IMG/VR virus record: IMGVR_UViG_3300046028_002233
Coordinates: 1-21,254 of that record
Strand: one strand, 5' to 3'
DNA from: a virus
Length of the DNA stretch: 21,254 nt
The notes under the pieces are model-generated. The model ran no database searches. It was not told the origin of the DNA and worked only from the letters and a program-made list of their open reading frames with translations. Both the position numbers and the translations under genes were made by a program. Positions 2,726-14,610 of this stretch are shown in pieces; position 1 is the first letter of the stretch, and each line of letters begins with the position of its first letter.

Positions 2726-4166
2726 TTATGGTTGCATTGTTATACGCCTGGTCTAAAGATAATTCCTCAATAGGTACTAAGTTAGCAGGAACGTAAATGT
2801 TCTGCATCTCTGGAGTGCTTAACTTATCATAACCCTGAGCAATACGTTTCTCGTCTGGAGTTATCCAATATGAGTTAGCTAACCAGTCAGTTAGCTTTGC
2901 CATATCCTCTTGCATCTCAGGATAACTGCTAAAGTCAAAATCAAAGTAGTATTTCTTGCCGTATGCTTTAGCGTATGGCTCACAAACAAACTTATTTATA
3001 GCATCTCTAATCTTGCGAGATAATGGAGCAGTTGCGTTATAGATTAACTGCTTAGATGCCCAACCCATGTTATTATCTGTGGAGGCTGATTCGCTTCCTG
3101 AGAATTGAATAGGAACATGAAAAGCAGTAAATATCTTGCGAGTATCTATGTTAAGCGATTCTATTAACTGTAAGTCAGTAGATGGCATTCCTATCTGAGT
3201 CCATTTTAAAGGACCTGAACTCGGGAATATACGATCCATTAAAGTTTCGCCACGCTTTGCATCAACAATCTTTTCTTTTAACAGATTCATCTGGTCTTTA
3301 GTCAGATTAGCACCATTGCCATCAGGTGAAACAAAACCAAATGCACCTCCATTACGGATCTGCTTTAGTAATTCGTTATCGCCTTCATTCTCTTTAAGTA
3401 CGTTTCTGTAAATAGCTTTTATAGGTGACTGTCCGTATAATTGCGCTCCTGTTAAAGTAAAGTCAGGATTAAATGATTTGAAGTGAACAACCTGATTAGC
3501 AGGTAAAGGTACTTCCTCAATATAGATAGATGTTAAAGAATATCCTTTAATTGGCTCAAACATACCGCCTGATATAATCTCAATCCATTGACTAGGTAAG
3601 CAGTATAGTTGTGACCAGATTTGTTTCTCGGTCATCACATCATCCTTACCATTCCCAAAAATATAACCATCGCCTGTACATAGGTAAAACCCTGCAAGAT
3701 CAGTCATCCATTCTTCATAAGTCTGTAAAGGATTTGGTTTTGCTAATAAATCAAGTATAGGATTGTTTTCTACCTGATTAAACATCTGCTCCTTTAACTG
3801 CAATGTTCTCATCTTAGCAGATGCACCCTCAGCCATAGACATATTCTCATATATCTTTAAATCCTTTTTTGTTACGCCCTCTTTGATTTCATAAAGACAG
3901 TAAGCGCATTCCGCAACCTTTTTACTAATAATATCAATGCAAGTGTAAACATCAGCGTTCTTTTGGAATCCCTCTTCAACAAACTTAATCTTATCTGAAA
4001 AATCAACTATTACCTGATTATTGCCAATCCATCCAAATACGTTCTGGTTGTAAAGGTTAGCAGTTATGCTTTGCTGCAATCCGGGCATCAAAGACTGTAA
4101 TTGATTTTGGGCTGCCTTTTCAATATCAGCCTTAAAGAATTTTTGTAGTATGCCCATAATTACCAT
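2715..4166 (-). CDS. Phage portal protein (HK97 type)
   Basis: The 483-residue length, position after the large terminase and sequence pattern fit HK97-type portal proteins, which form the dodecameric ring at one capsid vertex through which DNA is pumped. Visible family features are NADVYTCIDIISKKVA near 70-85 (the early helix), NNPILDLLAKPNP near 134-146, a GDGYIFG segment (the G-N/D-aYi motif), VVHFKSFNPD with a GQSPI motif downstream, and RKIFTAFHVPIQFSG (the family's iaafGVPp-like stretch). The first ATG (4166) overlaps the terminase stop; a second ATG at 4157 gives MGILQKFF and is an equally good start. The N-terminal amphipathic LQKFFKADIEKAAQNQLQSL may help assembly. Confidence 0.9.
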   Translation of the reverse strand: MVIMGILQKFFKADIEKAAQNQLQSLMPGLQQSITANLYNQNVFGWIGNNQVIVDFSDKIKFVEEGFQKNADVYTCIDIISKKVAECAYCLYEIKEGVTKKDLKIYENMSMAEGASAKMRTLQLKEQMFNQVENNPILDLLAKPNPLQTYEEWMTDLAGFYLCTGDGYIFGNGKDDVMTEKQIWSQLYCLPSQWIEIISGGMFEPIKGYSLTSIYIEEVPLPANQVVHFKSFNPDFTLTGAQLYGQSPIKAIYRNVLKENEGDNELLKQIRNGGAFGFVSPDGNGANLTKDQMNLLKEKIVDAKRGETLMDRIFPSSGPLKWTQIGMPSTDLQLIESLNIDTRKIFTAFHVPIQFSGSESASTDNNMGWASKQLIYNATAPLSRKIRDAINKFVCEPYAKAYGKKYYFDFDFSSYPEMQEDMAKLTDWLANSYWITPDEKRIAQGYDKLSTPEMQNIYVPANLVPIEELSLDQAYNNATINGK

Positions 4167-5323: not shown

Positions 5324-5672
5324 CTATTTCATTTTCACTATGTGACAAAGGAGGCGCAGTATTGTAAACATTTGGAGCAGGTACTCTAAAATTAATATCT
5401 CCATCTAATGTCAGGCTTTGCGATGCTTTGCCATAGGCACGATCTAGTAATACCTCAGCTGCTCTAACATCACCTTTTACTGCCTTTGCTCTCAGAGCCA
5501 TTAAGATAGCTTTTGCTGCTTCTATTCCATCCTTCTCCTCACCTAATACATCAGCTAGTAAAACATCTAACTGTGGTATTTTTCTTATGCCTCCTTTAGG
5601 ATTGCCAGATACTCCTTTTTTAAATTGAGTATTAGCACCTCTGCGTAAAGCCTCTTCTGTACTATGTATCAT
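5316..5672 (-). CDS. Terminase small subunit-like protein (DUF5681-type N-terminus)
   Basis: This 118-residue protein lies directly before and overlapping terL, the standard place for the small terminase subunit. Residues 17-27 (QFKKGVSGNPK) carry the F-K-K-G-x-S-G-N-P-K/R signature of the DUF5681 family, which recurs next to large terminases and in some DNA-binding proteins. It is followed by two helices (LDVLLADVLG; AAKAILMALRAKAVKGDVRAAEVLLDRAYG) that resemble the DNA-binding helical region of small terminases. The C-terminal 30 residues are polar and probably flexible. The role of recognising phage DNA is inferred mainly from position. The start codon overlaps the HNH stop as ATGA. Confidence 0.7.
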   Translation of the reverse strand: MIHSTEEALRRGANTQFKKGVSGNPKGGIRKIPQLDVLLADVLGEEKDGIEAAKAILMALRAKAVKGDVRAAEVLLDRAYGKASQSLTLDGDINFRVPAPNVYNTAPPLSHSENEIDV

Positions 5673-8617: not shown

Positions 8618-9494
8618 GTTCGAATGCGTAAAGTTTAGGAAATTCATAATATCTGTTTTTCTTCCAATCAAAGAATAGTTTAGTTTGACCTTTTTTAGCT
8701 ACGCCTTTAGGTTTAGCCTTTTCAATGTGTACTAACGTTATATTATCCTCAAATGGCATTCCGTTCTCATCTAGCATACCAGTTGGCGGTCTCCACAAAT
8801 TAATCCATGTCATTGCTTTTCTGAATAAGGCTTGACCTCCCGCCGCTTCTCTAGCCATAGGCATAGGATAATATCTTAACCCTGATCTGTCAACTAATGC
8901 TTGTTGGTTGGCAGGATGCAAAGTTAAGAGCCAATGCTTTTTATTTTTCTTGCAATATCTACGAATGTCTCCACATAAATCCTCTATGTACAAATCCTGC
9001 CTATTGCCATATTCGCTCATGTCATGCTTTAATTCATTGTAAGGATCAGTTAGTATTATTTTCTCATCCTTTACTAATTTTATCAAATCATTAAAGCCAT
9101 AGGCTCTCTCATCGCTATCTACAATAGAAAACATCTCATCTATGTAATTTACGGCATTATAAAACTGTTTATCCTCTACGGCTCCGGGAATAGATTTGTA
9201 GAATGGTTTACCTGTGTACTTGTGAATAAACTCAGCATAGATGTCCTCTGTGCTTCCTGTCTCTGGTGAATAGATTAATGTTTTCTTGCCGTATTTCTCT
9301 GCCTGAGTAAATGCTAACTCAAAAGCAAACTCAGATTTGCCCTGATGTGGAGGAGCAAGAATAAACGTATAAGAACCTTCCTTTATGGAATAAAATTCAT
9401 CTAAACATGCAAAGCCTGTATTTTCGCCTCTAGGATTTCCTTTTTCACGCATCTCAATTAGAGAGTCCTGAATATCTTTGAATTTTCTAATCAT
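8607..9494 (-). CDS. RecA/DnaB-like replicative ATPase or helicase
   Basis: This 295-residue protein has a RecA-fold ATPase core. A Walker A variant, APPHQGKS at 47-54, follows GSYTFIL, and a Walker B-like KIILTDPYNEL (145-155) has Asp150. TGFACLDEFYSIKEGSYTFILAPPHQGKS resembles the substrate-anchor and P-loop region of DnaB-type and phage helicase-like ATPases. WLLTLHPANQQAL (about 188-200) fits the sensor region (H-P/Q motif), and ITLVHIEKAKPKG the late strand with basic residues. It lacks the DnaB N-terminal domain, so it is closer to compact phage helicases or helicase loaders. It follows the initiator-like protein with a 1-base overlap (TGATG), the usual initiator-helicase pair. Helicase activity is inferred, ATP binding is well supported. 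Confidence 0.8.
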   Translation of the reverse strand: MIRKFKDIQDSLIEMREKGNPRGENTGFACLDEFYSIKEGSYTFILAPPHQGKSEFAFELAFTQAEKYGKKTLIYSPETGSTEDIYAEFIHKYTGKPFYKSIPGAVEDKQFYNAVNYIDEMFSIVDSDERAYGFNDLIKLVKDEKIILTDPYNELKHDMSEYGNRQDLYIEDLCGDIRRYCKKNKKHWLLTLHPANQQALVDRSGLRYYPMPMAREAAGGQALFRKAMTWINLWRPPTGMLDENGMPFEDNITLVHIEKAKPKGVAKKGQTKLFFDWKKNRYYEFPKLYAFEHEK

Positions 9495-10180
9495 CAGTTA
9501 CCTGGTCTAAAATCTATGTACTGCAAAGTAGCAGCTTTGTTTTCATCCTTAAACCAAACGCCTTGCATCTTCTGTTTCCAATTCTTAACCTGATTGTTTC
9601 TAGAATCCTTCCAATTATTTTCTTCGTAATAATGAAAAGCCTTTATAGCTGATTCTTTGGTATAGCCATTATCTTTAAAATACAACTCAACCTCAGAGAG
9701 AGATGGTGTGTATACTATTTCTTTTCTTTTCTTTTCTTTACATGAACTCGAGTTTAACTCAGTTGAAGTTAAGTTTAACTCAGTTGCGCTTGAGTTTAAG
9801 TCAGCTTCTTTTAATTTACGTGCATTTGCGCTATTAATACCTCCCTTACTTCGCCACCCTCTTTCCTTATCCATTTGCTCAAAATTCTTAAATACCCTAT
9901 TACTCCAGAAGTAATTACCATCCGTATTTAATAACTCTAATACATTAATTGCAAAATCTATAAACTCCTCAATTAACACATATTCGCATTTCATCTGCCC
10001 GGCTATTGCCCTGTATAGAAATTGCTTTTTAGGTAGTTTGTGGTCATCATCTGAATGTAGCATTTCAATTATTCGCCACCAGATCCCATAACCTAAACCA
10101 CCATACTCAGAAATCAATGCCTGTATCTTTGGATCAGAAGTAGGCTCAAAATCATGACTGAAATAAAATGTTTTCTTCAT
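9494..10180 (-). CDS. Replication initiator-like protein (Lin1244/Lin1753, DUF4373 N-terminal domain)
   Basis: The real start is probably the ATG at 10178-10180 (MKKTFYFSHD); the frame extends to 10237, but that part reads through a leader hairpin. The N-terminal 110 residues (FSHDFEPTSDPKIQALISEYGGLGYGIWWRIIEML) match the Lin1244/Lin1753-like winged-helix domain of phage replication proteins. A flexible Ser/Leu/Asn-rich linker has a 7-residue repeat (ADLNSSA, TELNLTS, TELNSSS), followed by a basic KEKKRKE. The C-terminal part (SEVELYFKDNGYTKESAIKAFHYYEENNWKD, then VKNWKQKMQGVW) resembles DnaD/DnaT-type primosome C-termini. It probably binds the origin and helps load the helicase encoded next. 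The linker DNA carries iteron-like repeats. Confidence 0.75.
   Translation of the reverse strand: MKKTFYFSHDFEPTSDPKIQALISEYGGLGYGIWWRIIEMLHSDDDHKLPKKQFLYRAIAGQMKCEYVLIEEFIDFAINVLELLNTDGNYFWSNRVFKNFEQMDKERGWRSKGGINSANARKLKEADLNSSATELNLTSTELNSSSCKEKKRKEIVYTPSLSEVELYFKDNGYTKESAIKAFHYYEENNWKDSRNNQVKNWKQKMQGVWFKDENKAATLQYIDFRPGN
9715..9813 (-). repeat. Three 21-bp tandem repeats plus polypyrimidine tract, origin-like
   Basis: On the plus strand three 21-base units start at 9751, 9772 and 9793. Units 1 and 2 share their first 15 bases (AGTTTAACTCAGTTG) exactly, and unit 3 matches 12 of these 15. Immediately to the left, about 9718-9740, is an almost pure pyrimidine tract of repeated CTTTT. The repeats encode the 7-residue linker repeat of the initiator-like protein. 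Repeats plus a strand-asymmetric AT-rich tract inside the initiator gene is the plan of the lambda origin, so this is a candidate replication origin; a simple coding repeat is the alternative. Confidence 0.5.
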
Positions 10181-10192
10181 TTGATTAAAATT

Positions 10193-10272
10193 AAAAAACC
10201 CATGCGGTTTCAAGGCATCCACTCCTATCCACCACATGGGTTTAAATGTTTTCTAATAGCTTATTGTGGATG
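10193..10272 (-). promoter_or_regulatory. Structured leader B: U-tailed hairpin with loop-complementary 7-mer
   Basis: On the minus strand a stem AAACCCATG/CATGGGTTT (10235-10243 with 10196-10204), one mismatch and three more pairs close a 22-nt loop (10209-10230). The stem runs into a T-tract, and the initiator-like ATG follows at 10180. An upstream 7-mer CATCCAC (10266-10272) is the perfect complement of GTGGATG in the loop (10216-10222). Leader A upstream of the ERF gene has the same plan with a 17/22 identical loop and unrelated stems. It may be an attenuator, a riboswitch-like or protein-binding RNA, or a DNA operator. Confidence 0.65.
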
Positions 10273-10285
10273 TCAGCTACCATTC

Positions 10286-10293
10286 CAAAGATA
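10286..10293 (-). promoter_or_regulatory. Candidate -7 box (TATCTTTG) before leader B
   Basis: TATCTTTG on the minus strand fits the TAnnTTTG consensus exactly. It lies just after the stop of the HTH gene (10300) and about 14 bases before the leader 7-mer, so transcription would start near 10279 and include the whole leader. I see no TTG at the right distance for a -33 element; the upstream DNA is AT-only. Confidence 0.45.
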
Positions 10294-10299
10294 TAAAAA

Positions 10300-10503
10300 T
10301 TAATTAATTAAATAATACTTTTTATACCTGGATCCTGTTTGATAATTAGTCTGCCATTCACCTTTTATGTTTAAGCCTCTAGTTTTCAAAACGCAAACAA
10401 TCTTGCGCAATTCAAAAGTCTTAAATAAGTTAAAACAATCTAATACTGTCAGCGGTTGCCCTGTTGTTAAAAACTCCTCAACCTGTTTAATTTTGATGTT
10501 CAT
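10300..10503 (-). CDS. Small helix-turn-helix protein (HTH_55-like)
   Basis: This 67-residue protein has the pattern of the small winged-helix HTH_55 family of phages. LTTGQPLTVLDCFNLFKTFELRKIVCVLKTRGLNIKGEW (about 12-50) contains the T-x-x-D-x-x-x-x-F helix, the recognition-helix region with xxIxxLKxRG, and a final basic YQTGSRYKKYYLI wing-like strand pair. It is probably a DNA-binding protein. Its start overlaps the upstream HTH gene's stop as ATGA (10500-10503). The candidate promoter for the replication gene lies right after its stop, so it closes the ERF operon. Target unknown. Confidence 0.7.
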   Translation of the reverse strand: MNIKIKQVEEFLTTGQPLTVLDCFNLFKTFELRKIVCVLKTRGLNIKGEWQTNYQTGSRYKKYYLIN

Positions 10504-10709: not shown

Positions 10710-11143
10710 TAGAATGTAATTACTATTGATGGTTTATTAAATTTCTTGCTAACCTTTGGCACTTCGCAACCCTCTGAGTCAAATATAATCTCATCTGATT
10801 TACTTGCGGTCTTTAATAATTCCTGCCTTTGCTTTAGCTTATTCTCAAGCAGTACATATATATCATCCTCATCATAATTAAGGCTCTCAGCTCCGTTCTT
10901 TGGAGTAAATAGAACTCCATTATAGCTATCAGGCTCAGTAAGGTTTAAACGATCTCTAAATGTCCTATCTGCTGAATCAATTACTGCCTTTAACCTAGCT
11001 ATGTTAGAATAGAACTGAGTAGGTGTTTGATTGCCATCATCAAAGAGTTTATTAATCAGATTGATGCCTGTCTGCTCGGCTTGTTTCTTTGTGAAATCAG
11101 GCGCATACATTACGCCTGATAACTCTACTAACTCATTAGACAT
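10709..11143 (-). CDS. Hypothetical protein downstream of ERF, 144 aa
   Basis: I do not recognise this family. The protein is soluble and acidic in the middle, with a helical region (FTKKQAEQTGINLINKLFDDGN, then FYSNIARLKAVIDSADRTFRDRLNL), a glycine- and Asn-containing stretch, and a long charged helix (DIYVLLENKLKQRQELLKTASKSD) ending in a hydrophobic PSIVITF tail. It overlaps the ERF gene by 8 bases and probably shares its mRNA. A position directly after a single-strand annealing protein suggests a helper in recombination, such as a nuclease partner or modulator, but no nuclease motif is visible. Confidence 0.6.
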   Translation of the reverse strand: MSNELVELSGVMYAPDFTKKQAEQTGINLINKLFDDGNQTPTQFYSNIARLKAVIDSADRTFRDRLNLTEPDSYNGVLFTPKNGAESLNYDEDDIYVLLENKLKQRQELLKTASKSDEIIFDSEGCEVPKVSKKFNKPSIVITF

Positions 11144-11675
11144 TTGCAGCCTCCTTTTCTAATAACGCCTGGTTATCTGTGCTGATCTTGTATTTCTTTA
11201 ATATCACATCCATTGTATATCCATCCTTTAAGGCTTGAACAACGGATGCCCATTTATCGGTTTTAGGATTAAGCCATGCTCTTGAATCCTCAGCAGCTTT
11301 GTTGCCATCATCATCATCATCTATATTCAGACCTAATACTCCTGCTAAAGCATAACGCTTGGCATAGGTAATGGCAGAGCCTACGGCTTGAGGATCATTC
11401 TGTTTACTAACTGGCATAATAAAGGAATCCATTAAATACTCGCCTGATTCGGCATGAATTAAAATAGTACATAACCCATTCACTCCGCTAGGCATCTGGG
11501 AGTAAGCCAGACCAGACTCGGCTAATGGTTTGCTGATTGCATCCTGAATGTTAGATAACGATGCGTAATTAGATTTAAAGAATGGATTTTTAGCATCCTT
11601 TGAAATCTTCTGGACTCTGCCCTGAAAGTCTATTAAGGCTTTAGCTAGGCTTGTAATTGTTTCTGATTTTTCCAT
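11136..11675 (-). CDS. erf: ERF family single-strand annealing recombination protein
   Basis: I start the gene at the ATG 11673-11675 (MEKSETITSLAKAL), giving 179 residues; the upstream extension to 11825 reads through a leader hairpin. The ERF core is clear: ALIDFQGRVQKISKDAKNPFFKSNYASLSNIQDAI, LAESGLAYSQMP, LCTILIHAESGEYL, and the signature AVGSAITYAKRYALAGVLGLNIDDDDDGN with its Gly-Ser-x-x-Thr-Tyr-x-x-R-Tyr-x-Leu and acidic run. The C-terminal 50 residues (WASVVQALKDGYTMDVILKKYKIS) form a small helical domain. ERF proteins anneal complementary single strands and help circularise or recombine phage DNA. The gene is preceded by promoter-like sequence and structured leader A, so it is likely regulated at RNA level. 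Confidence 0.88.
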   Translation of the reverse strand: MEKSETITSLAKALIDFQGRVQKISKDAKNPFFKSNYASLSNIQDAISKPLAESGLAYSQMPSGVNGLCTILIHAESGEYLMDSFIMPVSKQNDPQAVGSAITYAKRYALAGVLGLNIDDDDDGNKAAEDSRAWLNPKTDKWASVVQALKDGYTMDVILKKYKISTDNQALLEKEAANV

Positions 11676-11679
11676 AATG

Positions 11680-11755
11680 AAAAAAGCGTATGCCGTCAAG
11701 GTGTCCACTCCCATCAGGCTATACGCTATGTTTTTTTGGTTAATAAATGTGGACA
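11680..11755 (-). promoter_or_regulatory. Structured leader A: U-tailed hairpin with loop-complementary 7-mer
   Basis: On the minus strand AGCGTAT/ATACGCT (11721-11727 with 11685-11691), a one-base bulge and GCC/GGC enclose a 22-nt loop (11695-11716). The stem ends in a T-tract (11680-11685) only 4 bases from the ERF ATG. The upstream 7-mer TGTCCAC (11749-11755) is the perfect complement of GTGGACA in the loop (11702-11708). Compared with leader B, two loop bases inside this 7-mer differ and the upstream 7-mer changes to match. The spacer from 7-mer to hairpin is 21 bases here and 22 in leader B. Confidence 0.65.
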
Positions 11756-12724: not shown

Positions 12725-12810
12725 TTTATTTTTTGGATTAAATAGTCACACAATCCGGCTACTGCTATCAGTATTGCCGACATAATAATAAAAAAGATGA
12801 TAATTTCCAT
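12721..12810 (-). CDS. 29-aa single-TM micropeptide
   Basis: An ATG at 12808-12810 opens a frame of 29 codons that starts MEIIIFFIIMSAILIAVAGL and ends in a basic QKIK. It is almost wholly one membrane-spanning helix with a short charged C-terminus. The TGA overlaps the ATG of the next gene (ATGA), and a good promoter lies 23 bases upstream, so it would be the first gene of the early operon. No family recognised; a membrane-active role is inferred from hydrophobicity only. Confidence 0.6.
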   Translation of the reverse strand: MEIIIFFIIMSAILIAVAGLCDYLIQKIK

Positions 12811-13068: not shown

Positions 13069-13608
13069 TTATAATATCTTGCCCTTATAAATCAATGATG
13101 TATTATTTTTGAGATTGCCATTTAATTTAGCGCTTAATGTACAAATAGGAATTTTATGCGCTATTGCAGCATCAGTCAAACTTTTATATGTAATTCCAGA
13201 TAAAACATCATAAACAATTTTAGATTTTGTTTGTTTATTAAAATTAATTGTTGCTAACCTTTTATTTTCTGTATTAACTTTTAATCCTGTAGACCAAGCA
13301 TGTTTATGATTTTCTGATTGTGTACACCACTCTAAATTTTCAACACAATTATCTGTTTTAATTCCATTTTTATGATTTACTATATCTTTCCCTGATATTA
13401 AAGGAATAAAAGCATTAGCAATTAACCTATGCAATAAAAAGTATTTTGGATTTTTATTTAAATAGAGGCACGCTTGTTTATATTTCTTTTTGCCATCAAA
13501 TCTATCTTTTAGTATTTTTTCCTTTTTATGATAAATGCTTTTAATTCTACCTAAATTACTAACCATATATAATTTTTCGTAACCTATAACATCTTTCCAA
13601 ATTTCCAT
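13069..13608 (-). CDS. NUMOD4/HNH homing-type endonuclease
   Basis: The 179-residue protein shows the modular order of phage homing endonucleases. A NUMOD4 motif at residues 2-24 (WKDVIGYEKLYMVSNLGRIKS region) comes first. An HNH_3 core follows: HRLIANAFIP (61-70), VNHKNG (78-83), NLEWCTQSENHKHAW (about 91-105). The C-terminal NUMOD1-like DNA-binding segment (TDAAIAHKIPICTLSAKLNG) is last. It would cut DNA lacking the gene and spread by repair. It starts 3 bases after the metallophosphoesterase stop and lies between that gene and the small early genes, consistent with a free-standing mobile gene placed between functional modules. Its last five codons encode the same KGKIL end as the upstream gene. 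Base composition is AT-rich like the neighbours. Confidence 0.9.
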   Translation of the reverse strand: MEIWKDVIGYEKLYMVSNLGRIKSIYHKKEKILKDRFDGKKKYKQACLYLNKNPKYFLLHRLIANAFIPLISGKDIVNHKNGIKTDNCVENLEWCTQSENHKHAWSTGLKVNTENKRLATINFNKQTKSKIVYDVLSGITYKSLTDAAIAHKIPICTLSAKLNGNLKNNTSLIYKGKIL

Positions 13609-13611
13609 ATT

Positions 13612-14610
13612 TTATAGTATTTTGCCTTTTAATATTCTAAAATTCCTAACATTATAATTACCATTTGAACTAGTTTTAATATGAGCAAAACCATGTGAGT
13701 AATTATTTGATACAGGATTATACTCAGGTTGTAATTCTGATAAGCAACCCATACTCCAACAGGTAATTAAATCGCCACCAAGTGAAATCTCAGAATGTTC
13801 TGATACTCGATGCGAATGACCAACAAGAGCACTTTCCTTTGTTTTAAGAAATAATCCCCTTGCTGGATTAACTGGTGCACCAAACCCTCTAAAAAATAAA
13901 TGACCATGATGTAAACTTAACTTACCAGCTTTTATAATAGTTTTATCATTTATTGTATGTATTCTTTCCTCATTTAAACGCAATCTTTCATCTAATCTAA
14001 AGTAAGGATCATCAAATATTTCAGGCGCTTTAGCCATTAGCCAATGTTCATAACGTACATCGTGATTGCCAAAAGCCCAATAAATTTGAGCATTAGGGAA
14101 TGTTTGTCTCAAAATAACTAAAAAGGCTTTAGTTGTATCAAACTCATGTTTTATTGAGCGCTTTCTTGGATCTTTTTCATATCTTGATACGCCATAAAAA
14201 TCCATGACATCGCCTAGCATGATAATTGTATTTACTTGCTGCTCTTTACCATAATTTAAAGCCGCAGTAATAGCATCAATCGAATGATAAGGAATATGTA
14301 AATCAGAAATCAATAGAATGTTATTATCAGCTACAGGTAAAACATAAGGCTCTCTTATCTTTTCTTCTGAGTCTGGGAGTTTATAAGGATTGTAGTTAAA
14401 GGTTTTTTCGACGTATAAAGATTTATCATTATATTCTCCATGCCAAATGCTTGCAGGTTTTTTGCCTTTTATTGCCCTGATTGAACTTCTAACTGTTTCA
14501 ATACCCTTCCAAACTAAAGGATGGTCAGCATATATCTTTTTAGCCATTGTCAAATCAGCATGGTCAGGAAATCGTTTTAAATACTCCCTGATTATTTCGT
14601 GTTTAAGCAT
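13612..14610 (-). CDS. Calcineurin-like metallophosphoesterase
   Basis: The catalytic domain (about residues 95-290) has all five metal-binding motifs: SDLH (102-105), GDVMDF (133-138), GNHD (181-184), HHGH (234-237) and GHSH (264-267). These bind two metal ions and hydrolyse phosphoesters; the true substrate, nucleic acid or nucleotide, cannot be read from sequence. The N-terminal 60 residues (HEIIREYLKRFPDHADLTMAKKIYADHP and following SSIRAIKGK) look like a small helical, possibly DNA-binding, domain as on some other phage phosphoesterases. The gene lies between the endolysin and the homing endonuclease. It is 332 residues long and appears intact. The last residues, KGKIL, are repeated at the end of the next gene. 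Confidence 0.88.
   Translation of the reverse strand: MLKHEIIREYLKRFPDHADLTMAKKIYADHPLVWKGIETVRSSIRAIKGKKPASIWHGEYNDKSLYVEKTFNYNPYKLPDSEEKIREPYVLPVADNNILLISDLHIPYHSIDAITAALNYGKEQQVNTIIMLGDVMDFYGVSRYEKDPRKRSIKHEFDTTKAFLVILRQTFPNAQIYWAFGNHDVRYEHWLMAKAPEIFDDPYFRLDERLRLNEERIHTINDKTIIKAGKLSLHHGHLFFRGFGAPVNPARGLFLKTKESALVGHSHRVSEHSEISLGGDLITCWSMGCLSELQPEYNPVSNNYSHGFAHIKTSSNGNYNVRNFRILKGKIL

Follow-up and report, generated by a model that had tools for sequence, protein, structure and literature searches.

Kissing-hairpin leaders, possible attenuators, ahead of early-type genes in phages inferred to infect Bacteroidetes

RESULTS

Two leaders and the genes behind them

The window, by which we mean the whole stretch of DNA that was analyzed, is a fragment, 21,254 bases long, of an AT-rich phage in which almost every gene lies on the minus strand. 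A Bacteroidetes host is inferred from the promoter motif, from related proteins in phages of Flavobacterium and Porphyromonas, and from composition. Leader A precedes a gene for an Erf-like ssDNA annealing protein and leader B a gene for a replication initiation protein; their features are as follows, with the basis for each in parentheses.

10286 to 10293, minus strand: leader B promoter -7 box, TATCTTTG (sequence; consensus TAnnTTTG; predicted +1 at 10281)
10254 to 10282, minus strand: leader B hairpin 1, 5'-terminal, 8 bp with a 13-nt loop (minimum free energy fold)
10266 to 10272, minus strand: leader B kissing 7-mer CATCCAC, inside the hairpin 1 loop (exact complement of loop 2; covariation)
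10196 to 10243, minus strand: leader B hairpin 2 (fold, covariation, model R1 at 77.6 bits)
10185 to 10198, minus strand: T-rich tract 3' of leader B hairpin 2 (the A-rich 5' flank pairs with the start of the tract)
9494 to 10180, minus strand: replication initiation protein gene behind leader B, ATG at 10180 (phrog_2562, E 4.5e-17)
11769 to 11762, minus strand: leader A box-like sequence TAACTTTA (sequence)
11749 to 11755, minus strand: leader A kissing 7-mer TGTCCAC, pairing with loop GTGGACA (sequence)
11685 to 11727, minus strand: leader A hairpin 2, loop A plus GTGGACA, then TTTTTT (fold, model R1 at 58.7 bits)
11136 to 11675, minus strand: Erf-like ssDNA annealing protein gene behind leader A (phrog_155, E 1.2e-44)

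The earlier note on this DNA, which rested on these two copies, held that both leaders follow one plan, with 22-nt loops identical at 17 of 22 positions and with 7-mers that each pair perfectly with their own loop across spacers to hairpin 2 of 22 nt in B and 21 nt in A; re-reading the coordinates bore this out. The loop is indeed 22 nt long but is not open, since by fold AGG pairs with CCU inside it and GAU/UGA forms an internal loop of tandem G.A type. In leader B, hairpin 2 consists of an outer stem of 10 to 13 bp, the GAU/UGA internal loop, AGG/CCU, and an 8-nt loop, A plus GTGGATG. The letters of the internal loop suggest a tandem sheared G.A arrangement plus U.U. Pairing between the loop and the upstream 7-mer likewise stands, but the 7-mer of leader B is not free: by fold it lies in the loop of the 5' hairpin, and the contact in leader B is therefore a loop-loop kiss. 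Hairpin 1 of leader B begins one base from the predicted first nucleotide of the transcript, and the same hairpin was folded in contig L044, which has the same sequence in this region. Leader A and its close relatives have no strong or clear hairpin 1, so that the contact there is nearer to a simple pseudoknot. The gene start of leader A (ATG at 11675) lies about 10 nt past the stem. Within the window the loop core, GGAGTGGAYRCCTTGA, is confined to two places, leaders A and B, against a chance expectation of 0.22 matches even with three mismatches allowed. What is added here is the hairpin at the 5' end, the tandem G.A loop, and the further sequence classes and homing endonuclease link described below.

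Conservation and covariation in class I

Homologs of leaders A and B (class I) were started from an exact loop-core scan of viral contigs, which gave 86 matches; those that are AT-rich and have both a stem and a T-tract are the members. Later scans relaxed further positions; some scans required TCCAC upstream, while the loop-core scan and one later scan did not. When leaders were chosen by hairpin 2 alone (model R1), an exact upstream 7-mer complement was present in 66 of the 66 members with upstream DNA, in nine versions of the kissing 7-mer. The sole apparent miss, L027, begins at a contig edge and has no upstream DNA. Because all 66 homologs keep the match, chance is excluded as its source.

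Across 27 distinct class I leaders, 189 of 189 kissing cells pair, with 33 compensatory, 0 one-sided, and 0 broken; three of the seven pairs of the kissing helix vary on both sides and none on one, and slid controls reach at most 42 percent. An alignment of hairpin 2 (n = 35) has two-sided changes at 12 of 14 pairs and a covariation of 0.598, versus 0.19 when shuffled. Invariance at other class I loop positions is not evidence, because the search patterns partly fixed them. The counterpart of leader B in contig L231 has upstream DNA that is 98 percent identical, and through the end of hairpin 2 the two leaders differ at eight bases, which together form four compensated pairs, the kiss and the stem of hairpin 2 each accounting for two; contig L002 carries the same eight differences. 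A coding explanation, in which both loops read GVD.L in the gene frame, was rejected since the loop-to-ATG distance of 19 to 44 nt covers all three phases and the changes are compensated pair by pair.

A further motif, AATAGTTATCGGTAATCTTTAAACCG, was observed between hairpin 2 and the ATG in several leaders, where it can fold a small CGGT/ACCG hairpin before the start codon. It was located as follows, with similar cases in L002, L357, L363, and L365.

L222, about 14290 to 14333: AATAGTTATCGGTAATCTTTAAACCG motif leader
L224, about 12743 to 12778: AATAGTTATCGGTAATCTTTAAACCG motif leader
L298, about 10452 to 10494: AATAGTTATCGGTAATCTTTAAACCG motif leader

One architecture in unrelated sequences

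Weak R1 matches in Flavobacterium phage tooticki6-1 and other contigs had the same plan in unrelated letters. Demanding only a TAnnTTTG box, a kiss of at least 7, a stem, and a T-rich tail, a promoter-anchored scan returned 44 real places, versus 4, 1, and 3 in reversed, complemented, and direct controls. Contigs fetched later gave 54, versus 0, 3, and 1; 26 of these 54 are class II, the basis on which those contigs were picked, and 28 are other sequences. Chance as an explanation of the leaders is ruled out by these control scans (44 versus 1 to 4; 54 versus 0 to 3) together with the 66 of 66 upstream matches of class I. When the promoter box was dropped and hairpins alone were sought, detection in single genomes was too noisy. 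Members were found in the cultured phages tooticki6-1 (two leaders, at 11590 and 12625), morran9-1, elemoA, elemoC, 11b, and Cellulophaga phi19:1; sequences matching the two tooticki leaders occur in 34 and 46 Flavobacterium phage records.

A scan for the class II loop led to 82 contigs. Selection on hairpin 2 alone left 57 distinct hairpins, 55 of which have a perfect upstream complement, the other two being coding chance matches. There are six class II kissing sequences. Covariation is seen in hairpin 1, in the kiss, and in the outer stem; the inner stem, which the search pattern had fixed, does not vary. Both class I and class II have the tandem G.A loop, parts of which were in the search patterns. 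As regards a riboswitch-like ligand pocket, conserved loops exist but are class specific, with no sequence common to the classes. The order throughout the superfamily is a TAnnTTTG promoter, a hairpin at the predicted +1, an A-rich linker, hairpin 2, a U-rich tract, and the start codon, with loop 2 pairing with loop 1 over 7 to 9 nt; the +1 hairpin is clear in leader B and most others and weak in leader A. Given the class I pairing counts and the agreement of an independent class, the functional RNA fold with a covarying 7-mer read by the earlier note is strongly supported. The further copies in related phages that it had suggested seeking were found in many contigs by alignment and scans, homologs with mismatched 7-mers, which it had named as a refuting result, were sought without any being found, and its preference for RNA pairing over a fixed protein operator is strengthened because unrelated sequences use one architecture.

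The genes behind class II leaders are nearly all free-standing homing endonucleases (NUMOD4-HNH, GIY-YIG with NUMOD3, and T5orf172). Overall the leader-borne genes form a DNA-metabolism regulon, many of them non-SSB, and leaders of several unrelated sequence classes coexist in one phage before unrelated genes. In several contigs, a conserved protein of 78 to 79 amino acids (MNTISVQGFKIDINHFDTQ...) lies behind class II leaders where other contigs carry homing endonucleases (L317, 969 to 1208; relatives in L316, L347, L355, L368, L380, and L383); this protein had no Pfam match. The window itself has an ORF at 13069 to 13608 whose translation (MEIWKDVIGYEKLY...) resembles a NUMOD4-HNH homing endonuclease, judged by inspection without a family search; it has no kissing leader of its own, because it starts 4 nt past the upstream gene. 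An A-rich stretch (AAAACATTTAA / AACAATATTATAAAATT) also recurs in the linkers between the hairpins of classes I and II, for example at 10244 to 10256 of the window (minus strand), and could dock into the kissing helix.

Promoter register and terminator-like tail

In Flavobacterium psychrophilum the TAnnTTTG box occupies -12 to -5 (PMC9723704), and we therefore took the fifth base past the box as +1. The start sites so obtained are motif predictions only. Of the 31 leaders in the promoter-anchored set that have a hairpin 1, 26 begin it no more than 2 nt from the predicted +1.

The ten bases 3' of hairpin 2, without T being required, are 67% T and 21% A, versus 33% and 43% upstream of ordinary ATGs in the same contigs. 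Hairpin 2 has a median energy of -18 kcal/mol, and it meets the criterion for an intrinsic terminator of a GC-containing stem followed immediately by a T-tract, although the tract is interrupted in some leaders, such as those of L030 and L034. The tail thus resembles an intrinsic terminator, and termination at the T-tract is plausible, there being no transcript data. A simple terminator scan called neither hairpin in A or B because it accepts loops of at most 8 nt. The kiss does not exclude hairpin 2, so the leaders show no classic terminator/antiterminator switch.

Leaders at gene-swap junctions

Siblings of leader A in contigs L012, L037, and L047 have upstream DNA 95 to 96 percent and a leader 94 to 98 percent identical to the window, and the gene that follows is unrelated to that of the window (54 to 57 percent identity, the random level being 55). 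There the Erf gene is replaced by a RecT-like gene, named by sequence inspection without a family search. Comparison of 11136 to 11675 of the window with L012, L037, L047, L068, and L083 shows the Erf or RecT-like recombinase cleanly swapped behind a near-identical leader A. The same pattern was found for leader B in L002, L076, L231, and L009, and in L018, L024, L242, and L247 leader B alone is in common with the window. Among the sibling contigs compared, 12 have a leader 76 to 100% identical with one or both flanks at random level.

Where one record carries two class II leaders, their kissing sequences differ in 5 of 5 cases (permutation P = 0.016), and the three rarest class II versions are confined to such two-leader records. 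With two class I leaders they differ in 14 of 14, in phages that are related. These differences hint that cross-pairing between leaders of one phage is avoided. The two class II leaders of L356 (about 3470 to 3535 and 5340 to 5405) are near duplicates, one compensated kiss pair apart (GTGGTCG and GTGGTAG).

Searches outside the superfamily

Rfam 15 gave no family at the curated threshold in the window and none relevant at E up to 5, and on tooticki6-1, phi19:1, and 11b it gave tRNAs only. A host origin of the leaders found no support: models R1 and R2 had no match in 395 Bacteroidota genomes each under strict filters, without a positive control there, and a scan of genome contigs found no Bacteroidota-chromosome match that passed the pairing and stem test. 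BLAST of leader B against named phages returned short spurious matches only. In 40 kb of the T4-like phage RB49, kissing was not in excess, regions rich in promoter-early stem-loops not having been targeted. Among individual candidates, the L139 match was rejected as a tRNA-Leu and those at L028, L041:4116, L170, L182, L320, and L383 as coding matches; L282 and L281:3117 were kept out of the member set.

DISCUSSION

The comparisons establish from sequence an RNA fold under strong selection that lies behind predicted promoters and ahead of early-type genes. That leaders A and B fold as RNA we regard as nearly certain, and that they act in cis is very probable. What the fold does is inferred, and attenuation, for which there are no transcript data, is an evenly balanced proposition. 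Taken whole, the best explanation is that these are self-contained attenuator leaders belonging to a large superfamily in Bacteroidetes phages, a reading we hold with confidence barely past the midpoint. Hairpin 2 would be an intrinsic terminator within the 5' untranslated region, and the kissing complex could form as loop 2 exits RNA polymerase and might then set the frequency of stopping versus read-through. Such an attenuator would limit or time the expression of recombination, replication, and homing endonuclease genes that have their own promoters. The cassette would remain at the joint when the downstream gene is swapped, because promoter and attenuator move together. A bolder version, in which a protein-independent RNA module programs its own termination as the 5' hairpin kisses the terminator hairpin, and in which pure architecture, orthogonal in each phage, has spread with its promoter and with homing endonucleases, remains speculative and is rather unlikely to hold in full.

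The leaders could instead stabilize the mRNA, with a paired 5' end and kissing fold shielding it from 5'-end-dependent decay and leaving a U-rich, unstructured landing zone for the ribosome. Precedents exist in the ompA 5' stem-loop and the T7 gene 10 leader, and Bacteroidetes translation, which proceeds mostly without Shine-Dalgarno pairing, would suit the U-rich tract. The placement of hairpin 1 at the predicted +1 in most leaders serves this function equally well, and an architecture that stays constant while its sequence varies is what would be expected if no sequence were read. Protection does not, however, need hairpin 2 to be long and to run straight into Ts, and leader A has no clear hairpin 1 and a stem ending 10 nt before the ATG, within the ribosome footprint. 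We therefore consider stabilization unlikely, if still a serious contender.

Less probable again is a translational operator, in which a phage protein (SSB, Erf, or another) recognizes or is nucleated by the kissing complex and then covers the start codon in the manner of gp32. T4 gene 32 indeed has a comparable arrangement, in which an A+U-rich stretch and the AUG come after a compact pseudoknot-type fold (PMC3014915), several of the downstream genes encode DNA-binding proteins, and the tandem G.A loop of classes I and II could be a protein site, allowing that it was partly in the search patterns. A single autogenous regulator nonetheless fits poorly with phages that carry several unrelated leader classes before unrelated genes, homing endonucleases included.

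Kissing in trans would require the leaders of one phage to differ, as terminated leader fragments from a gene would pair with its nascent leaders, providing a concentration feedback like that of plasmid antisense attenuation. The 7-mers do differ in every record with two class II leaders (five records, P = 0.016) or two class I leaders (14 records), but the latter come from related phages, independent records are few, single base-pair differences such as that in L356 may not block cross-pairing, and an intramolecular kiss should win kinetically; this we judge quite improbable. That the element works only as DNA, as a fixed protein operator or recombination site without RNA function, is scarcely credible, for although the 7-mers double as a DNA inverted repeat and the leaders lie at gene-swap junctions, several separate helices covary in stems and kiss, unrelated sequences share one architecture, and both the T-rich tail and the +1 register are features that belong to a transcript.

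The leaders bear on gene control in Bacteroidetes phages, about which little is known, as a recognizable and widespread RNA element with testable pairing that is present in cultured phages. They would also serve as a signature for homing endonuclease genes and supply orthogonal RNA parts for Bacteroidetes.

Kissing-loop control is familiar from ColE1 RNAI/RNAII and attenuation of the pT181 type, where a loop-loop contact of about 7 bp is made with an antisense partner. The contact here is of similar length, and attenuation is again a possible output, but both partners lie in cis within one leader and there is no antisense RNA. Among phages, T4-like genomes reportedly carry promoter-early stem-loops (PeSLs; work associated with Arbiol in 2010 and Comeau in 2014), each a promoter plus a terminator-like stem-loop between early genes. 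As cited in PMC4503421, PeSLs sit at junctions of swapped unrelated genes. The present leaders likewise place a promoter, identified by motif only, directly before a terminator-like stem-loop between genes, and they too are conserved at junctions of swapped genes; they would provide a modular gene-swapping route outside the T4-like phages. In contrast to PeSLs, they have a TAnnTTTG Bacteroidetes box in place of the T4 early (sigma-70) promoter, the phages are not T4-like, and the leaders add a 5'-terminal hairpin whose kiss with the terminator-like loop covaries strongly.

The T4 gene 32 mRNA has a 5' leader pseudoknot of the H type followed by an A+U-rich stretch to the AUG, and it serves one gene and one autoregulatory protein (PMC3014915). 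The leaders described here are also of pseudoknot type, precede phage DNA-metabolism genes, and are A+U-rich up to the AUG, and they would add another regulatory phage leader pseudoknot; they differ in that two hairpins kiss at +1, a T-tract follows, and the downstream genes are many and unrelated. In the T4 homing endonuclease genes (I-TevI, segB, and mobE), leader hairpins mostly hide the Shine-Dalgarno sequence in long early transcripts, and seg43(25) has a strong hairpin ending before the ribosome site (PMC2988022). RNA structure lies just 5' of the start codon in both systems, whereas the present leaders have their own promoter and do not pair with the start region. As the T4 homing endonuclease genes are held back by their leader hairpins, a damping role for these leaders would fit by analogy.
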